From positions 744,001 to 808,000 of the forward strand of contig CP034928.1 of the NCBI GenBank assembly GCA_004102645.1: a stretch of DNA of 64,000 bases, read 5' to 3'. The translations under genes and the position numbers were made by a program. Positions within the stretch are counted from its first letter, which is position 1; each line of letters begins with the position of its first letter. The notes beneath the pieces were generated by a model, which was given only the letters and a program-made list of their open reading frames with translations, had not been told where the DNA came from and did no database searches. The DNA comes from Candidatus Bipolaricaulis sibiricus (GTDB lineage Bacteria > Bipolaricaulota > Bipolaricaulia > Bipolaricaulales > Bipolaricaulaceae). Positions 1 to 62,727 of the stretch are shown in pieces.

Positions 1-1314
1 TGGCAGGACATGGTCCAAGGTCACGACGACACGACGCCCCCCCCGGGGATGCCCTCGGCCTACGCCATGGTGGGCTTGGAGACGAGCATCGTGATGCACC
101 CCCAGGTATGGAAGGCGAGCGGGCACTACGACCTCTTCCACGACATGCTCGTGGACTGCCGCCGCTGCAAGGCGCGGTTCCGCGCTGACCAGCTGGCCAC
201 GAGCTCGTGCCCCGAGAAGCCCTCCAGACACCCCGGTGAGCACACGACGTGCGACCTCACCCCCCCTCGGGAGTTCAACCTCATGTTCAAGACCTACATT
301 GGAGCGCTGGTTGATCCGGACAGCGAGGCCTACCTGCGTCCGGAGACAGCCCAAGGGATGTTCGTCAACTTCCGGAATGTCCTCGCCACGGCCCGGGTCA
401 AGCTGCCGTTCGGGATCGCTCAGATCGGGAAGTCGTTCCGCAACGAGATCACCCCGCGGAACTTCACCTACCGGTCGCGGGAGTTCGAACAGATGGAGAT
501 CGAGTTCTTCTGCCGCCCCGAGGAGTCGCGACAGTGGTACGAGTACTGGCGCGACCGCCGTCTGCGGTGGTACGTGTCCCTGGGGCTGGCGAGCGAGAAG
601 GTGCGGCTCCGCGAGCACACCGCGGACGAGCTGAGCCACTACAGCTGCGGTACAGCAGACATCGAGTATGCCTTCCCGTTCCTCCCGGACGGGGAGTTTG
701 GCGAGCTGGAGGGGATTGCCCACCGTGGGGACTTCGATCTCCGCTCGCACATGGAGGGTAAGTTGGTCCGGCGGGGAGATGACCTCGTAGTGGAGACGGG
801 GCCAGACGGCAGGCCGCGGCACCCCGGCAGCGGGAAGGACCTCTCGTACTACGATGAGGAGACGAAGGAACGCCTCATCCCTCACGTGATCGAGCCCTCC
901 GCGGGGGTAGACAGGTCTGTCCTGGCCTTCATCTGTGAGGCATACGCGGAAGACGCCATCCCCGATGAGAGCGGTACCCCCCAGCCCCGGGTCGTGCTCA
1001 AGCTGAATCCACGCCTCGCGCCCGTGAAGGCGGCGGTGTTCCCTCTCATCCGCCGAGACGGGATGCCCGAACGGGCACTCGAGATCTACCGAGAGCTGAA
1101 GTCACGGTGGAACGTGGACTACGACGAGAAAGGCTCGATCGGCCGTCGCTACCGACGCCAGGATGAGTCTGGAACGCCATTCTGCATCACGGTGGACGGA
1201 GAGACGGCGGCTGACGAGACCGTAACCGTGCGCGATCGCGACACCACGGTTCAGCAGCGCGTGCCGATCAAGGACCTTGTTGGATTGCTGCAGGAGAGGA
1301 TCGTAGGTCCCTAG
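1..1314 (+). CDS. glyQS: Glycyl-tRNA synthetase, dimeric class II type (5' truncated)
   Basis: Charges tRNA-Gly with glycine. The frame is open from the first base (WQDMVQG...), so the true start lies upstream of the window. Visible class II landmarks are the Zn-type insert start (DCRRCKARFRAD), PETAQGMFVNF, motif 2 (GKSFRNEITPRNFTYR, with REFEQMEIEFF after it) and motif 3 (EPSAGVDRSVLAF). The C-terminal third is an anticodon-binding domain (from about LKLNPRLAPVKAAVFPL to the end). This is the single-chain homodimeric form, not the alpha2beta2 form. It stands alone on the plus strand; a new promoter begins about 50 bp after its stop, so it probably ends its own transcription unit. Confidence 0.97.
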   Translation, partial: WQDMVQGHDDTTPPPGMPSAYAMVGLETSIVMHPQVWKASGHYDLFHDMLVDCRRCKARFRADQLATSSCPEKPSRHPGEHTTCDLTPPREFNLMFKTYIGALVDPDSEAYLRPETAQGMFVNFRNVLATARVKLPFGIAQIGKSFRNEITPRNFTYRSREFEQMEIEFFCRPEESRQWYEYWRDRRLRWYVSLGLASEKVRLREHTADELSHYSCGTADIEYAFPFLPDGEFGELEGIAHRGDFDLRSHMEGKLVRRGDDLVVETGPDGRPRHPGSGKDLSYYDEETKERLIPHVIEPSAGVDRSVLAFICEAYAEDAIPDESGTPQPRVVLKLNPRLAPVKAAVFPLIRRDGMPERALEIYRELKSRWNVDYDEKGSIGRRYRRQDESGTPFCITVDGETAADETVTVRDRDTTVQQRVPIKDLVGLLQERIVGP

Positions 1315-13256: not shown

Positions 13257-15347
13257 CTAGAAGCCCTCGAGCGCTCCGATCGTCGTCTGCCAGAACACGA
13301 TCCGCACGAACTCGGTGTACGATAGCGCTGAACCGATACGGAAGTTGAGCGAGGGAACCAGCGCCCCCGTGAACCCTTCGGGGCTTCCGACCACCAACGG
13401 GTTCGTCGGTGGGCTCACCATCAGCTGCCTCAGCCGTACGAACCCCTGGGAGCGATCGAGGTTCCCGTCACCGTCCATGTCCAGTCGCAGGTCCATGTAG
13501 ATCGAGGTTGCATTGCGAACCTGGAACGAGTGCGTGACCCGGCCTGACGTGACTGAGCCCTCGAACACCACCCGCCAGCCCTCGCTCACAGGTTCTGGAA
13601 TCAGACCCAGCGGAACCGGTCCCGCATCCGTCGATACGTTGATGAACTGTCCATCTGTCCTCAGCTCGAGCCGGTAGCCTCGTGGCATCGTCCACGTCGA
13701 CGCTCCGTTGACCGTGATTCTCCACGTGTCCGTTCCCCACACGTAGATTCCCGGTACGGTCATCGGCGGCATCCCCGGAGGCCCGGCTACCGCTACGATC
13801 ACCGGTTGCGTGGTCTGGCCCGTGGCCCCCTGGTTGTCGGTGACGTAGAGCGTCGCGTTGTACGCCCCCGCTGACCCATACGTCCACGTCACCACCGGGC
13901 CCGAGCGGTCGATAACCCCGTTCCCGGTCAGGTCCCACGCGTAGGACACGATGCTACCGTCCGGATCGTAGGATGGGGTCCCGTTGAAGGTCACGGTTGC
14001 CCCTGGCGTCGGAGCAGACGGTGTGAAGGTGAACTGCGCCACCGGTGGCTGGTTCACCACCACCGGGGTCACCACGACCGTCTGGGTACGCTGGGCTGTG
14101 GCCCCCTGATTGTCGGTCACGAGCAGCCGCACCGTGTACGTACCGGCAGCCGGGTACTGGTGGAACACCACCTGCCCCGTTGCATCGAACGTGCCGTCGT
14201 TCTGGAAATCCCACTGGTAACTGGCAATGAACCCATCAGGGTCAGAGGACGCGCTTGCATCGAACCGGACCCAGTCGCCTGGCCTCGGAGCTGCGGGCGT
14301 GAACGTGAACTGAGCCACTGGCGGTTGATTGACAGCGACCACGACAACCTGACGGATCGTCTGTCCCGTCGCCCCCAGACCGTCAGTGACCACAAGCCGG
14401 ACGTTGTAGGTGCCAGGGGCGGGGAACGTCCAGGTGGTCGTGACCCCAGTCCGCTCAAACACACCGTTGTTGTTGAAGTCCCACTGGTACCCGACGATCG
14501 TCCCATCGGGATCGTAGGACGTTGCCGCGCTGAACGAGACAGGAACCCCGGGGGCTGGGCTGGCGGGCGTGAACGTGAACTGAGCCACCGGAGGTTGGTT
14601 CACCGGAGTAGTCGGCGACAGCACAACCTCCAAGGTTCGCGTCCCCCCGGCCACGAGGAACACCCGTGCCGTGTAGTCCTGGTACCCGGTCTTGCGGATG
14701 AGGACATCGTGAAATCCCGGCACAAGGTTCACCGTCCGTGGCGTGTACCCACGGAACACGCCATCCACGTACAGCTTGGCCGTCGCTGGCGAAGAGCGGA
14801 CCACGAGGGTTCCGTATCCCGGGGCCGGCCCGGACACGATCTGGAAGCTTGTGAAATCGAAGGCGCGCTGAGTCGGCTCGGGAACGAGGCCGAGAACCTG
14901 CGCCCCCCACGCCTCGGGATCCGATCCCAGCAGAGGGAACGGATCGCCTGGCGAGTAGCCGGCGAACCCACTGACCGGTTGCACAGAAGCCATGATCTGC
15001 AACCACTCCGTCCCCAGAGGGGGGGCTACCGTGAACTGGTACCCGCGCCCTGGGGTGGGGATGGTGTGGGTTCCGGCGGCGAAGTAGTTCTGCGACTCGT
15101 ACTGGTTGGGGAAGATCTGTTGGACGTTCCCATCCGGCATGATGTCCCAGATGTAGACGTACGCCGGTCGGTTGAGGGTGAACGAGATCCTCACCGTCTC
15201 TCCCAGCGCGTAGGCTGGCTTGTCCGTGGAGATGGTCACCGTCAGGTCGCCCGCCGGCGGCTCGACGACGATCCCCAGAGGTTCCACTTGGCCCAGGGCC
15301 GATAGGCCCACGATCAGAACCAACGCGACGATCCATGTGTTTCTCAT
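13257..15347 (-). CDS. Exported DUF4384-PEGA-PKD3 protein
   Basis: 696 residues. Signal peptide MRNTWIVALVLIVGLSALG; then a DUF4384-like domain (TISTDKPAYALGETVRISF ... YVYIWDIMPDGNVQQIFPN), a PEGA domain (VRSSPATAKLYVDGVFRGYTP), and three PKD domains each opening NQPPVAQFTFTP and carrying the SYDPDG / WDF signature. The C-terminal 180 residues hold an EF-hand-like MDGDGNLDRS. These are extracellular binding or scaffold modules. The start is set by GGAGGAGG upstream. It is the last gene of the ECF sigma operon, 22 nt after the preceding stop, so envelope regulation is likely. Confidence 0.88.
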   Translation of the reverse strand: MRNTWIVALVLIVGLSALGQVEPLGIVVEPPAGDLTVTISTDKPAYALGETVRISFTLNRPAYVYIWDIMPDGNVQQIFPNQYESQNYFAAGTHTIPTPGRGYQFTVAPPLGTEWLQIMASVQPVSGFAGYSPGDPFPLLGSDPEAWGAQVLGLVPEPTQRAFDFTSFQIVSGPAPGYGTLVVRSSPATAKLYVDGVFRGYTPRTVNLVPGFHDVLIRKTGYQDYTARVFLVAGGTRTLEVVLSPTTPVNQPPVAQFTFTPASPAPGVPVSFSAATSYDPDGTIVGYQWDFNNNGVFERTGVTTTWTFPAPGTYNVRLVVTDGLGATGQTIRQVVVVAVNQPPVAQFTFTPAAPRPGDWVRFDASASSDPDGFIASYQWDFQNDGTFDATGQVVFHQYPAAGTYTVRLLVTDNQGATAQRTQTVVVTPVVVNQPPVAQFTFTPSAPTPGATVTFNGTPSYDPDGSIVSYAWDLTGNGVIDRSGPVVTWTYGSAGAYNATLYVTDNQGATGQTTQPVIVAVAGPPGMPPMTVPGIYVWGTDTWRITVNGASTWTMPRGYRLELRTDGQFINVSTDAGPVPLGLIPEPVSEGWRVVFEGSVTSGRVTHSFQVRNATSIYMDLRLDMDGDGNLDRSQGFVRLRQLMVSPPTNPLVVGSPEGFTGALVPSLNFRIGSALSYTEFVRIVFWQTTIGALEGF

Positions 15348-15369
15348 GTTCCTCAACCTCCTCCGTACA

Positions 15370-16035
15370 CTACGGTCCATACGCGCGGTACGCGATCTGC
15401 TGGACCAGTTCGGCCGTCAGCGCCTCGAGGAGACGGTCCACGTCACCCGGGTCAAGCACCGCCCCCCGCAACTTCACGAAGCGCGAGCGCACAAACGCCT
15501 CCAGTGACTCCCGTGGTTGGCTGATCACGAAGTCCCCCACGGCCCACGCCATCTCCAACACCAGGCGGTCCTGAGGCAAGAGCGGGCCTCCCGGTCCCTG
15601 GGGACCAACCCCGACGATCCGGTACTGGATCAGCACCTGCTGCGCAGCGCCCAAGAGGTTGTAGCGGATCTTCAGGTTCGTCAGCACGGCCTCCCAGGGT
15701 TGGCCCATCTGCAAGACCTTCAGCACATCGTTCATCAACGGATCCGTGATGAACCCACGGTCGAGCGCGTGGTGGATGACCCAGACCACCTCCTCAGCCT
15801 GAGCGGGGGACAGCGCCGCGATCTGCCGCAGGAAGGGGAGACTGACCCCCGGCGTCGCTCGTCCTGTGCTCAACCCGGCGCTGAGTACAGGAGCGAACAG
15901 AGCCTTCAGCTCGGCGGAGATCGGCATCGTCTTGAGGAAATCCAGCACCTCGTCCGTCGAGGGGGCCGGAGGCAGCACAAGCTGGGCACTCACTGCCATC
16001 GAGAGCAAGACCGCCGCGACAGCCACGATCCTCAC
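15370..16035 (-). CDS. Exported protein of unknown function in the ECF operon
   Basis: 221 residues from GTG 16035, which overlaps the stop of the preceding gene. A signal peptide (VRIVAVAAVLLSMAVSAQ) precedes a mostly helical, soluble region without cysteines or a family I recognise. Motif-like stretches include LPFLRQIAALSPAQAEEVVW and ALDRGFITDPLMNDVLKVL. Position between an anti-sigma-like gene and the PKD protein suggests a periplasmic or surface partner. Confidence 0.75.
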   Translation of the reverse strand: MRIVAVAAVLLSMAVSAQLVLPPAPSTDEVLDFLKTMPISAELKALFAPVLSAGLSTGRATPGVSLPFLRQIAALSPAQAEEVVWVIHHALDRGFITDPLMNDVLKVLQMGQPWEAVLTNLKIRYNLLGAAQQVLIQYRIVGVGPQGPGGPLLPQDRLVLEMAWAVGDFVISQPRESLEAFVRSRFVKLRGAVLDPGDVDRLLEALTAELVQQIAYRAYGP

Positions 16036-16568
16036 ATTCCATCTCCCCCGATGTAGCGGACGGACACGTACTCGCCGAACGTTCGCACGAACTCCGCTGC
16101 GCGCGGGTCCTGACCCACCCAGCGCCCGTCGACAACGAACGCGTATTCGTACCGGCCCGGTGGGAGGGCGACCGTCACCGACCACACGCCGTCACCGTCA
16201 AGGTCGAACAACGAGATCGGCTGCCACGCCGAGAAGTCACCCACCACAACAACCTCCTTGGCACCTGGCGCAGCCACGGTGAACAGGTTGGCTCCGGACG
16301 CGGGAAGCGATCGAGGTGTGGGAACCGACAGTCTGCCGATGAGAACTCCGAGCGCGATGAGCAGCCCGCCGACGGCGACCGCCCACCTCGGTTCGACGGT
16401 CGCCGTGGAGAGGGCCTCCACAAGCCGCGCCTTCAGTGTTCGTCGGATCGCCGGGCGGGCCAAGCGGCGTACCACACGCCCCTCCACACCCTGCAGACTC
16501 GGCAAACCGGCCTGCACTTCCCGCGCGATCGCCCCTTGGATCAGGGAATCCAACTCATCCAACGGCAT
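16032..16568 (-). CDS. Membrane protein with external CBM48/AMPK-type domain; probable anti-sigma factor
   Basis: 178 residues: a cytoplasmic helical part (1-60), one membrane helix (about 63-80), then an E-set/CBM48-like domain (about 95-172) with the pattern FTVAAPGAKEVVVVGDFSAW, GVWSVTVALPPGRYEYAFVV and DGRWVGQDP. Such domains bind glycogen-like glucans or serve as interaction modules. It overlaps the ECF sigma gene by 14 nt, the usual place for a membrane anti-sigma factor, but no zinc-binding anti-sigma motif is visible. The anti-sigma role is inferred from context; carbohydrate sensing is a guess. Confidence 0.8.
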   Translation of the reverse strand: MPLDELDSLIQGAIAREVQAGLPSLQGVEGRVVRRLARPAIRRTLKARLVEALSTATVEPRWAVAVGGLLIALGVLIGRLSVPTPRSLPASGANLFTVAAPGAKEVVVVGDFSAWQPISLFDLDGDGVWSVTVALPPGRYEYAFVVDGRWVGQDPRAAEFVRTFGEYVSVRYIGGDGM

Positions 16569-17097
16569 CCCGAATCACCCCGCGTGCCACAAGCTCTGCC
16601 CGCACCAGAGCTCGTGCCCGGTGCAAGCGTGTCTTGACCGTCCCCAGTCGGAGGCCGAGTACGGCACCGATCTCCTCGAGCGGGAGGTCGTGCCAGTAGC
16701 GGAGCACGAGCGGAGCCCGGTACGATTCCGGCAACCCCCACACGGCCTCGCGCACGGTCATCTCCATATCCTCTTGCCACACCGTCCAGGCCGGATCCTC
16801 AGCCCACACCTCCTTCGGTTGGGGATCTCGGCGCCGCTTGCGCAGCGCGTTCTTCGCCACATTGGCAGTGACCGTGAACAGCCATGTCGAAAACTTCCGC
16901 GACAGATCGTACCGCCGCAATCGTTCATAGGCCCTCACGAACGCATCCTGGACGGCGTCCTCGGCATCCGCACGGTTGCGGAGGATCGCCACGGCAACTC
17001 CGAACGCCGCCTCCTTGTATCGGCTCACGATCTCTCCCCATGCCTCCAGGTCGCCGTTCAGGCTGCGCTGGAGGAGCTCAAGCTCCCCGACCTCCAC
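16555..17097 (-). CDS. ECF-type RNA polymerase sigma factor
   Basis: 180 residues from GTG 17097, four bases after AAGGAGG. Region 2 is clear (SRYKEAAFGVAVAILRN, ADAEDAVQDAFVRAYERL, FSTWLFTVTANVAKN) and region 4 carries the helix-turn-helix (LPLEEIGAVLGLRLGTVKTR then LHRAR). There is no region 1 or 3, as expected for group IV. It leads a four-gene operon with the membrane CBM48 protein and two exported proteins. A promoter-like element in front matches one in front of the divergent PKD lipoprotein, so autoregulation is likely. Confidence 0.93.
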   Translation of the reverse strand: MEVGELELLQRSLNGDLEAWGEIVSRYKEAAFGVAVAILRNRADAEDAVQDAFVRAYERLRRYDLSRKFSTWLFTVTANVAKNALRKRRRDPQPKEVWAEDPAWTVWQEDMEMTVREAVWGLPESYRAPLVLRYWHDLPLEEIGAVLGLRLGTVKTRLHRARALVRAELVARGVIRDAVG

Positions 17098-17117
17098 CCT
17101 ACCTCCTTCTGAGCCAA

Positions 17118-17145
17118 TATACACCGCGCTGCAATCGGCGGTTTC
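17118..17145 (-). promoter_or_regulatory. Putative ECF-dependent promoter of the sigma operon
   Basis: GAAACC (minus strand, 17145-17140), 16-nt spacer, TGTATA (17123-17118). Same architecture as the divergent element at 17176-17203. A TATATT overlapping the -10 could also serve sigma70. Confidence 0.55.
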
Positions 17146-17175
17146 GTCTGGACAGATGTCCGCTCGCCGATGGAC

Positions 17176-17203
17176 GGAACCGCGGTGTGGAGTTCGCTGT
17201 ATT
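17176..17203 (+). promoter_or_regulatory. Putative ECF-dependent promoter of the PKD lipoprotein
   Basis: GGAACC (17176-17181), 16-nt spacer, TGTATT (17198-17203). The preceding ACG and the spacing match the divergent sigma-operon element. Confidence 0.55.
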
Positions 17204-17266
17204 CTCATTGGATGTGCTGGGATCGAGCTACGCTCGTCGCAGCTCCCAATGACAAAGGAGGTCGGT

Positions 17267-18232
17267 ATGCGCAGGATTTGGAAGATAGGGTTGACAGTGG
17301 TGATCGGTCTAGGACTTGCGGGTTGCGCATGGTTGTTCTCCCCGCCGCAAGCCGTGTTGACCGCGAGTGTGACATCAGGGACGGCTCCTCTCACTGTGCA
17401 GTTCGACCTGTCGGGATCGACGGGCCAGATCGCCAGTTACACTCTCACGTTTGGAGACGGCTCGGAGCCCGCAACGGGGACGGACATCACGGTCACAGTC
17501 GTCCATACGTACACGACCGCCGGGACCCGCACCGCAACACTGACCGTCCAGGACACGCGCGGGCGCACGAGCTCCGTGTCCGTGACGATCACCATCACCG
17601 CTGCCCCGACGACCACGGCCAGCTTGGGTGCTATCCCTGCCTCGGGTCCCGTTCCTCTGAACGTCGACTTCTGGGCCAACATCACCGCGGCCCCAGGGCG
17701 CAGGATCAAGCACGTCCGGCTGGAGTACGGGGACGGCGCGCCCGACTTCACGGCCGACGTTGACTTCGCAAGCTATGACTTCTGGATCCTGGGCGCGGGG
17801 CACACGTACACAACCCCGGGCACCTACACGGCAACCCTCACGCTGACCGATGACGCGACACCCGCCCAGACCACCACCGCCACCGCCACGATCACCGTCA
17901 CCAGCCCGCCGCCCGAGATCACCGCGTTCACGGTCAATGGGTCTGACGTCGAGCCCGTAGAGGTCGTGGTGGGCACAGACGTTACGTTCGCGTTCGCGGC
18001 CCAGGCAGGGGACGCGGATCGTCGGCTGGTGAAGTGGGAACTGCGCTCCGGTGACGGATACGTCGTCACGGTGGATGTCGCCCCCACGAGCACTCTCAAC
18101 GTCACCCATGTCTACCTCGGTGGCTACACTCAGACAGGGTCACGTACAGCGATGGTCAAGGTGTGGGACGACCTCAGCCCCGCGAAGACCGACGAGGCCA
18201 CGCTCAGCGTAAGCGTCGTAGCCGGTCCCTAG
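17267..18232 (+). CDS. PKD-domain lipoprotein
   Basis: 321 residues. The signal peptide MRRIWKIGLTVVIGLGLAGC ends in a lipobox (LAGC), then about three PKD-type beta domains (TAPLTVQFDLSGSTG, then VPLNVDFWANITAAPG, then a less typical third with VTFAFAAQAGDADRRLVKWE). Each ends in HTYTTAGT/HVYLGGY-like strands. The start has AAAGGAGG upstream; the longer frame runs through the promoter. It diverges from the ECF sigma gene and probably shares its regulation, making it a candidate regulon member at the cell surface. Confidence 0.88.
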   Translation: MRRIWKIGLTVVIGLGLAGCAWLFSPPQAVLTASVTSGTAPLTVQFDLSGSTGQIASYTLTFGDGSEPATGTDITVTVVHTYTTAGTRTATLTVQDTRGRTSSVSVTITITAAPTTTASLGAIPASGPVPLNVDFWANITAAPGRRIKHVRLEYGDGAPDFTADVDFASYDFWILGAGHTYTTPGTYTATLTLTDDATPAQTTTATATITVTSPPPEITAFTVNGSDVEPVEVVVGTDVTFAFAAQAGDADRRLVKWELRSGDGYVVTVDVAPTSTLNVTHVYLGGYTQTGSRTAMVKVWDDLSPAKTDEATLSVSVVAGP

Positions 18233-62713: not shown

Positions 62714-62727
62714 GGACAGATGTCCTC

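Follow-up and report, generated by a model that had tools for sequence, protein, structure and literature searches.

SigW of Bacillus subtilis, the closest described counterpart of the sigma factor studied here, is an autoregulated factor with envelope targets, and several other systems provide points of comparison. The promoter motif of SigW reads TGAAAC-N16,17-CGTA (PMC2375139); ECF autoregulation is further illustrated by EcfG, where the sigma gene and the divergent phyR gene are both transcribed from the sigma factor's own promoter type (PMC8103513); class I anti-sigma factors (ASDI) are built of N-terminal helices, often followed by a membrane helix, and of a C-terminal sensor domain, and include non-zinc forms (PMC7406223); and the clostridial SigI proteins are sigma factors tied to extracellular polysaccharide sensing (PMC4711584, PMC6056542). 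The Bipolaricaulota are a candidate phylum of unusual cell shape, with bipolar prosthecae in one member (PMC6092417, which makes no mention of sigma factors). Our search of the open-access literature, in which an absence is to be taken as a weak one, returned no work that, by its title, concerns sigma factors in Bipolaricaulota/Acetothermia and no ECF anti-sigma factor with an AMPK1_CBM domain.

Here, we examined a 64 kb stretch of the genome of Candidatus Bipolaricaulis sibiricus (the window, whose numbering is used throughout), for which an initial annotation had proposed that two matching ECF-type promoters separate a sigma operon from a PKD lipoprotein gene. The features on which our analysis relies are the following:

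13257..15380, minus strand: fourth gene of the presumed operon, with DUF4384, PEGA and PKD domains; probably exported; its true start may lie some codons downstream
15370..16035, minus strand: gene three of the presumed operon; no Pfam family; probably exported, to judge by eye from the N-terminus
16032..16568, minus strand: candidate anti-sigma factor gene, overlapping the sigma gene by 14 nt; membrane helix and AMPK1_CBM/CBM48-like domain
16555..17097, minus strand: ECF sigma factor gene, GTG start preceded by AGGAGG, 180 aa, regions 2 and 4, nearest to SigW
17118..17145, minus strand: promoter of the sigma operon and predicted site of sigma autoregulation; -35 GAAACC at 17145-17140, N16, -10 TGTATA at 17123-17118
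17150..17161, palindromic: GGACAGATGTCC, flanked by both -35 boxes and found at the locus in all 12 genus genomes
17172..17181, plus strand: GGACGGAACC, the form that the GGACGNACC element takes in this genus, starting 21 bp after the start of the palindrome's GACA; the plus-strand -35 coincides with its final six bases
17176..17203, plus strand: second, sub-consensus match, predicted to be a lineage-limited promoter of the PKD lipoprotein; -35 GGAACC at 17176-17181, N16, -10 TGTATT at 17198-17203
17229..17234, plus strand: TACGCT, a TAnnnT element whose start lies at +57 relative to the start of GGACG; a candidate for the -10 in an older, presumably non-ECF lipoprotein promoter
17267..18232, plus strand: divergent PKD-domain lipoprotein gene, 321 aa, lipobox LAGC by eye

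Reading the 64 kb window confirmed both motifs at their annotated positions, with the bases and the shared N16 spacing that had been reported, as ACGAAACC-N16-TGTATA on the minus strand (17147-17118) and ACGGAACC-N16-TGTATT on the plus strand (17174-17203). Contrary to the annotation, the promoters stand back to back and diverge instead of facing each other, with the -35 boxes as their inner ends. As for the ACG said to precede each motif, AC does stand before the hexamer GRAACC, but the G of ACGRAACC is part of the hexamer itself. Such a pair is hardly expected by chance, as GRAACC-N16-TGTAT occurs twice in the window against a mean of 0.01 in 100 dinucleotide shuffles, none of which contained two. 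The longer ACGRAACC-N16-TGTATW, with up to three mismatches, has eight matches in the window where 3.9 are expected, and no match other than the two sites is free of mismatches. We also scanned all window positions on both strands with a weight matrix trained on 60 sites, all from other genomes and with lipoprotein-side sites excluded. The minus-strand site ranked first (31.9 bits), the plus-strand site second (18.3) and the next position third (10.9); since nearly half of the training set (29 of 60) consists of sigma-gene promoters orthologous to the minus-strand site, the independent test lies in the rank of the plus-strand site only. The training sites score from 18.9 to 38.3, which places the plus-strand site below every one of them and well above background. 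A terminator scan of 16900-17400 returned two terminator-like sites where 0.2 were expected, one of which falls within the spacer of the plus-strand promoter, where a terminator-like hairpin is followed by T-rich bases (17182-17200).

At the protein level, the sigma factor carries Sigma70_r2 (3.8e-18) and Sigma70_r4_2 (5.2e-14) within its 180 aa according to Pfam, and thereby displays the regions 2 and 4 alone, at a length of about 180 aa, that distinguish ECF (group IV) factors. It passes the NCBIfam TIGR02937 cut-off (99 vs 42.9), and its nearest solved structure is SigW (5wuq, E 1.1e-28). SigW is likewise its best NCBIfam match, yet with scores far below the cut-offs (141.1 vs 209 and 121.6 vs 243.1 bits), so that the protein is not classed as a SigW equivalog. 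The promoter TGAAAC-N16,17-CGTA(T) of the SigW/RsiW system of B. subtilis (PMC2375139) resembles the GAAAC-N16/17-TGTATA found here as regards the -35 GAAAC and the spacing, although the -10 opens with T (TGTA) in the present case and with C (CGTA) in that motif.

To what extent the sigma promoter is conserved can be judged from 60 relatives, in which a search with the sigma protein gave a match in 55 genomes, 52 of the best matches being near-full-length orthologues (E < 2e-46; the one of G037 has a TGA inside). The upstream DNA was read for 50 of these 52 loci, G046 and G056 being excluded. Within 150 bases upstream, the strict promoter GRAACY-N15/16-TGTATA is found at 36 of the 50 loci (dinucleotide shuffles: 0), a loose form at 47 (0.3) and the core AAC-N16-19-GTA at all 50, the conserved -35 being GAAAC. 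The strict and loose promoters span seven families of the class, and the eighth, f6, is represented by a single locus (G043) with a weak core alone; only the core is likewise present in G028 (f1) and G038 (f3), and these three loci are to be read against a chance expectation of 3.45 in 50 for the core. The -10 of the sigma promoter takes a variant form, GTGTAATATA or GTGTAAGATA, in G017 and throughout the loci read from genus g13. The sigma gene is thus preceded by a conserved copy of its own presumed target promoter, as would be expected of an autoregulated ECF factor. This is the form that the initial annotation had recognized, and it now finds strong support, the sigma promoter being kept across families and the motif being enriched in the genus and the family, mostly ahead of genes for exported proteins. 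The sigma factor would recognize GRAACC-N15/16-TGTATA, and the minus-strand site would drive the genes of the sigma factor, the probable anti-sigma factor and the two probably exported proteins as one presumed operon.

The genome encodes another ECF factor (L098, G000:C1:1455616-1456092), the neighbor of which is, by eye, an anti-sigma candidate of the HxxxCxxC type. The existence of this second gene lends some substance to the idea that the motif belongs to that factor, which would then control the sigma operon studied here. However, the 400 bases upstream of it hold no match to GRAAC-N14-18-[CTG]GT[ACT], its neighbor appears to be of the zinc type, and the motif persists ahead of the SigW-like sigma gene across many genera and families. 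We ruled this owner out on its motif-free upstream region and give the idea next to no credence.

Turning to the targets, the search of the genome for the motif ahead of genes, run as a refutation test for which a lack of enrichment was the adverse outcome, found enrichment and did not refute the claim. In the genome itself (1,701,655 bp, one contig), the pattern with N15-17 allowed has four exact sites, all four with N16, vs one for the reversed pattern, and all four occupy promoter positions, ahead of the sigma gene, the lipoprotein gene, a chagasin-type I42 exported-looking protein and an exported-looking protein without Pfam match. When one mismatch is tolerated in the TGTATA form, the count rises to 12 sites vs 3 reversed, the sites beyond the known four comprising four ahead of exported-looking proteins, one with a long leader and three that look unrelated or unclear. 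These counts bear on the notion that both motifs are ordinary housekeeping promoters with a TATATT/TATTCT-like -10, a notion suggested by TGTATATT, which includes TATATT, one base off TATAAT. So few sites in 1.7 Mb (four exact, 12 once a mismatch is tolerated), mostly ahead of exported proteins, are at odds with it, as are the conserved -35, which is GAAAC and not TTGACA, and a sigma-70 scan of 16900-17400, which found no complete promoter. On rarity and target classes we ruled this explanation out, and we hold it to be very improbable.

Across the 12 genus genomes, GRAACC-N15-17-TGTAT has 49 sites vs 4 reversed. The strict GRAACC-N15/16-TGTATA has 88 vs 3 in the family (37 genomes) but shows hardly any enrichment in the rest of the class (13 vs 8 reversed in 23 genomes). 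Sorted by context, the 49 genus sites are distributed among the sigma promoter (12), the lipoprotein side (10, the contig of G001 ending near the start of the lipoprotein gene), a protein family that we call family X (10, in 9 genomes), Q/A-rich exported-looking proteins (5), I42-type proteins (3), other exported-looking proteins (2) and a conserved long leader (5, the gene behind it being less certain), with two unexplained; by eye, 42 of the 49 thus precede the sigma gene, the lipoprotein gene or the gene of another exported protein. Across the family's remaining genera there are 39 non-sigma sites, of which 28 precede exported-looking proteins, with the gene at most 41 bases from the -10 in 24 cases and at 85-122 bases in four, and 11 do not; the targets there include family X, Cys-rich, DUF4384-like and VIT-like (by eye) proteins, among others. 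Start codons and signal peptides were assigned by eye with a crude hydrophobicity score as an aid. Pfam was run on six proteins of the own genome only, of which one matched I42 (8e-21), one DUF4384 (3.7e-20) and one, Cys-rich, gave a weak, sub-cut-off match to FlgD_ig; the remaining three, namely the family X, Q/A-rich and L101 proteins, had no Pfam match. The 33 family genomes with a full sigma orthologue hold 86 sites and the four in which none was detected (G014, G016, G020 and G030, 58 to 96% complete) hold 1, 1, 0 and 0, respectively; G016, at 88% completeness, has one good-looking site nonetheless.

Some of these targets deserve separate mention. Family X (L004:741-1478 and orthologues), exported-looking and Pfam-less, is the most recurrent target away from the sigma locus (9 of the 12 genus genomes), and on one contig, G006:C77, its promoter and gene start occur twice in inverted orientation (L068 and L079), perhaps as an assembly duplication. 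At L110 (G000:C1:1584297), L060, L067, L069, L089 and L092, the motif is followed by a conserved-looking leader, which contains GGCAGAGGG in several of these loci, and not by an immediate start codon; the regulon may have a small RNA here, or the transcript a long 5' leader.

Overall, the sequence comparisons indicate that the sigma factor very probably activates, besides its own gene, a limited number of exported-protein genes through one common promoter signature, and that it would drive such a regulon elsewhere in the genome. We consider it likely that the locus combines a SigW-like ECF factor with an autoregulated sigma operon and an exported-protein regulon; this kind of system is already known, and its support at the sequence level is good.

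The gene directly downstream of the sigma gene is conserved with it, being detected at 49 of the 50 loci with a profile built from 41 of these loci (the contig ends at the 50th, L009) and at all nine of the loci L111-L119. With the same 41-locus profile, it was found outside the phylum at one of the 70 loci L120-L189 (L141, a Spirochaetales record). Its predicted structure (mean pLDDT 69.8) begins with three helices, which are modeled with low confidence (block pLDDT 54-69); residues 60-80 probably form a membrane helix, and residues 94-173 a beta sandwich. The latter resembles the glycogen-binding domains of AMPK (1z0m_C: TMt 0.81, E 3.3e-06); two tryptophans of the AMPK sugar site seem to be kept, and other contact residues do not. 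By position and build, the protein is likely an anti-sigma factor, which would carry an extracytoplasmic AMPK/CBM48-like sensor domain and which, to judge from the fold, could bind sugar. No HxxxCxxC motif was seen in it by eye, and it differs from the partner in the SigW/RsiW system both in this respect and in its AMPK/CBM48-like domain. SigI is not an ECF factor, and the RsgI proteins carry carbohydrate modules of other families than that of the present partner. The order of N-terminal helices (here from a low-confidence model), probable membrane helix and C-terminal domain would resemble the ASDI build (PMC7406223), and the tie between a sigma factor and polysaccharide sensing, predicted here from the fold, would be shared with clostridial SigI (PMC4711584, PMC6056542).

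Regulon membership is less certain for the divergent gene. Two divergent units on the sigma factor's own promoter type would recall EcfG and phyR (PMC8103513), but at the present locus the gene opposite the sigma gene encodes a PKD lipoprotein, and its predicted ECF promoter has a limited lineage range. Lipoprotein homologues lie divergent to the sigma gene at 42 of the 50 loci (profile trained on 13 of them), and two of the eight loci without a match are contig ends. At the position of the plus-strand site, 10 of the genus genomes have matrix scores between 13.6 and 19.0, whereas G005 has 2.4, G015 has 12.6 and the other placeable loci run from -15 to -37; the site is broken in G005 (TCGATT) and in G006, where GGAGCT replaces the -35 and the pattern did not place it. 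The plus-strand motif is absent elsewhere, including in G025, the other species of the genus of G015 (itself of another genus of the family). The -10 of the plus-strand site is TGTATT, where 36 of the 39 other genus sites have TGTATA. The assignment of the lipoprotein to the regulon therefore stands in part: the exact motif is present in 10 of the 12 genus genomes and in G015, but it is lineage-limited and sub-consensus and overlies an older module. Regulon membership of the lipoprotein is likely a property of this genus and not a general one. A search for an RNA hairpin in the lipoprotein leader gave an unremarkable z-score of -1.0.

This older module is common to many divergent-lipoprotein loci and consists of GACAnnTGTC (or nearly so), GGACGNACC 21 bp on and TAnnnT about 57 bp on (start to start). 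A fixed pattern finds it in 34 of the 50 loci, namely 32 of the 42 with a lipoprotein, two contig-end loci and none of the six without a lipoprotein; among the 10 lipoprotein loci that the pattern missed, four (L012, L039, L041 and L050) seem by eye to have the block and six do not clearly do so. Of the 34 block loci, 23 have TAnnnT at +56..59, where shuffles predict 0.7, and re-registering by hand eight loci with TAnnnT at +53..55 (anchor four bases late) brings the count to 31; the remaining three, all of genus g13, have none. In L046 and L047 (family f3), the palindrome lies about 19 bp further from the sigma -35 with the distances inside the module kept, which indicates that the module belongs to the lipoprotein side. 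The strict module pattern occurs in 25 of the 60 genomes, once each, vs 0 reversed, and 24 of these matches sit at the sigma/lipoprotein locus; the module was rejected as a wider regulon, the 25th match (G014) lying inside a dehydrogenase-like reading frame. Nor does the palindrome GGACANNTGTCC behave as a global operator, with 44 places vs 21 reversed in the 12 genomes, 12 of the 44 at this locus, hence little enrichment elsewhere. In the own genome, GGACAGATGTCC has six places, one of which adjoins a dnaA-like gene (L082), and the five other than the present one have no common theme. A second copy within the window (62714-62725) lies, by eye, directly 3' of the stop codon of a subtilase-like frame. 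From its sequence, the module probably represents an activator-dependent promoter of non-ECF appearance.

The superposition raises the question of which promoter serves the lipoprotein. The sigma operon could be autoregulated and the plus-strand match go unused by the sigma factor, as a by-product of the older module (GGACGNACC plus a TTCC-like element about 16 bases on), the lipoprotein being then transcribed from a housekeeping-type promoter with TAnnnT as its -10 and an activator on the palindrome. The tie of the pattern-defined module to loci with a lipoprotein and the TAnnnT spacing retained after hand re-registration both speak for such an arrangement, as do the sub-consensus quality of the plus-strand site, the lack of an ECF motif at this position in all module loci but those of the genus and of G015, and the fact that the -35 half of the site is already accounted for by the older GGACGNACC element. 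Against it, TGTATTC at the -10 of the plus-strand site is kept in 11 of the 12 genus genomes where other genera differ, and the exact N16 together with the second rank in the window under a lipoprotein-free matrix is hard to obtain by accident; moreover, the sigma-70 scan of 16900-17400 returned no promoter, and the pattern misses the module in 10 of the 42 lipoprotein loci, though four of them seem to have the block. We regard an unused plus-strand site as rather unlikely, and use of this site by the sigma factor as reasonably probable on the sequence evidence. Under the latter reading, the weaker plus-strand site would probably let the sigma factor drive the divergent PKD lipoprotein too within the genus. 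Since the ECF site would overlie the older lipoprotein module, the lipoprotein probably has a second, sigma-independent promoter in addition.

Taken as a whole, we tentatively picture a glycan-sensing envelope stress system, in which a SigW-like ECF factor would be held by a membrane anti-sigma factor with an outer AMPK/CBM48-type module, and in which a lineage-specific second ECF promoter, laid over a single-copy operator module, would capture the lipoprotein; this full picture is offered with much less assurance than its autoregulatory part. With regard to the biology of the phylum, the Bipolaricaulota gain an envelope-type regulon that is defined, with named genes and a promoter code open to testing, and the intergenic region seems to illustrate how a few base changes over a control module already in place bring a gene adjacent to a sigma factor into the regulon of that factor.
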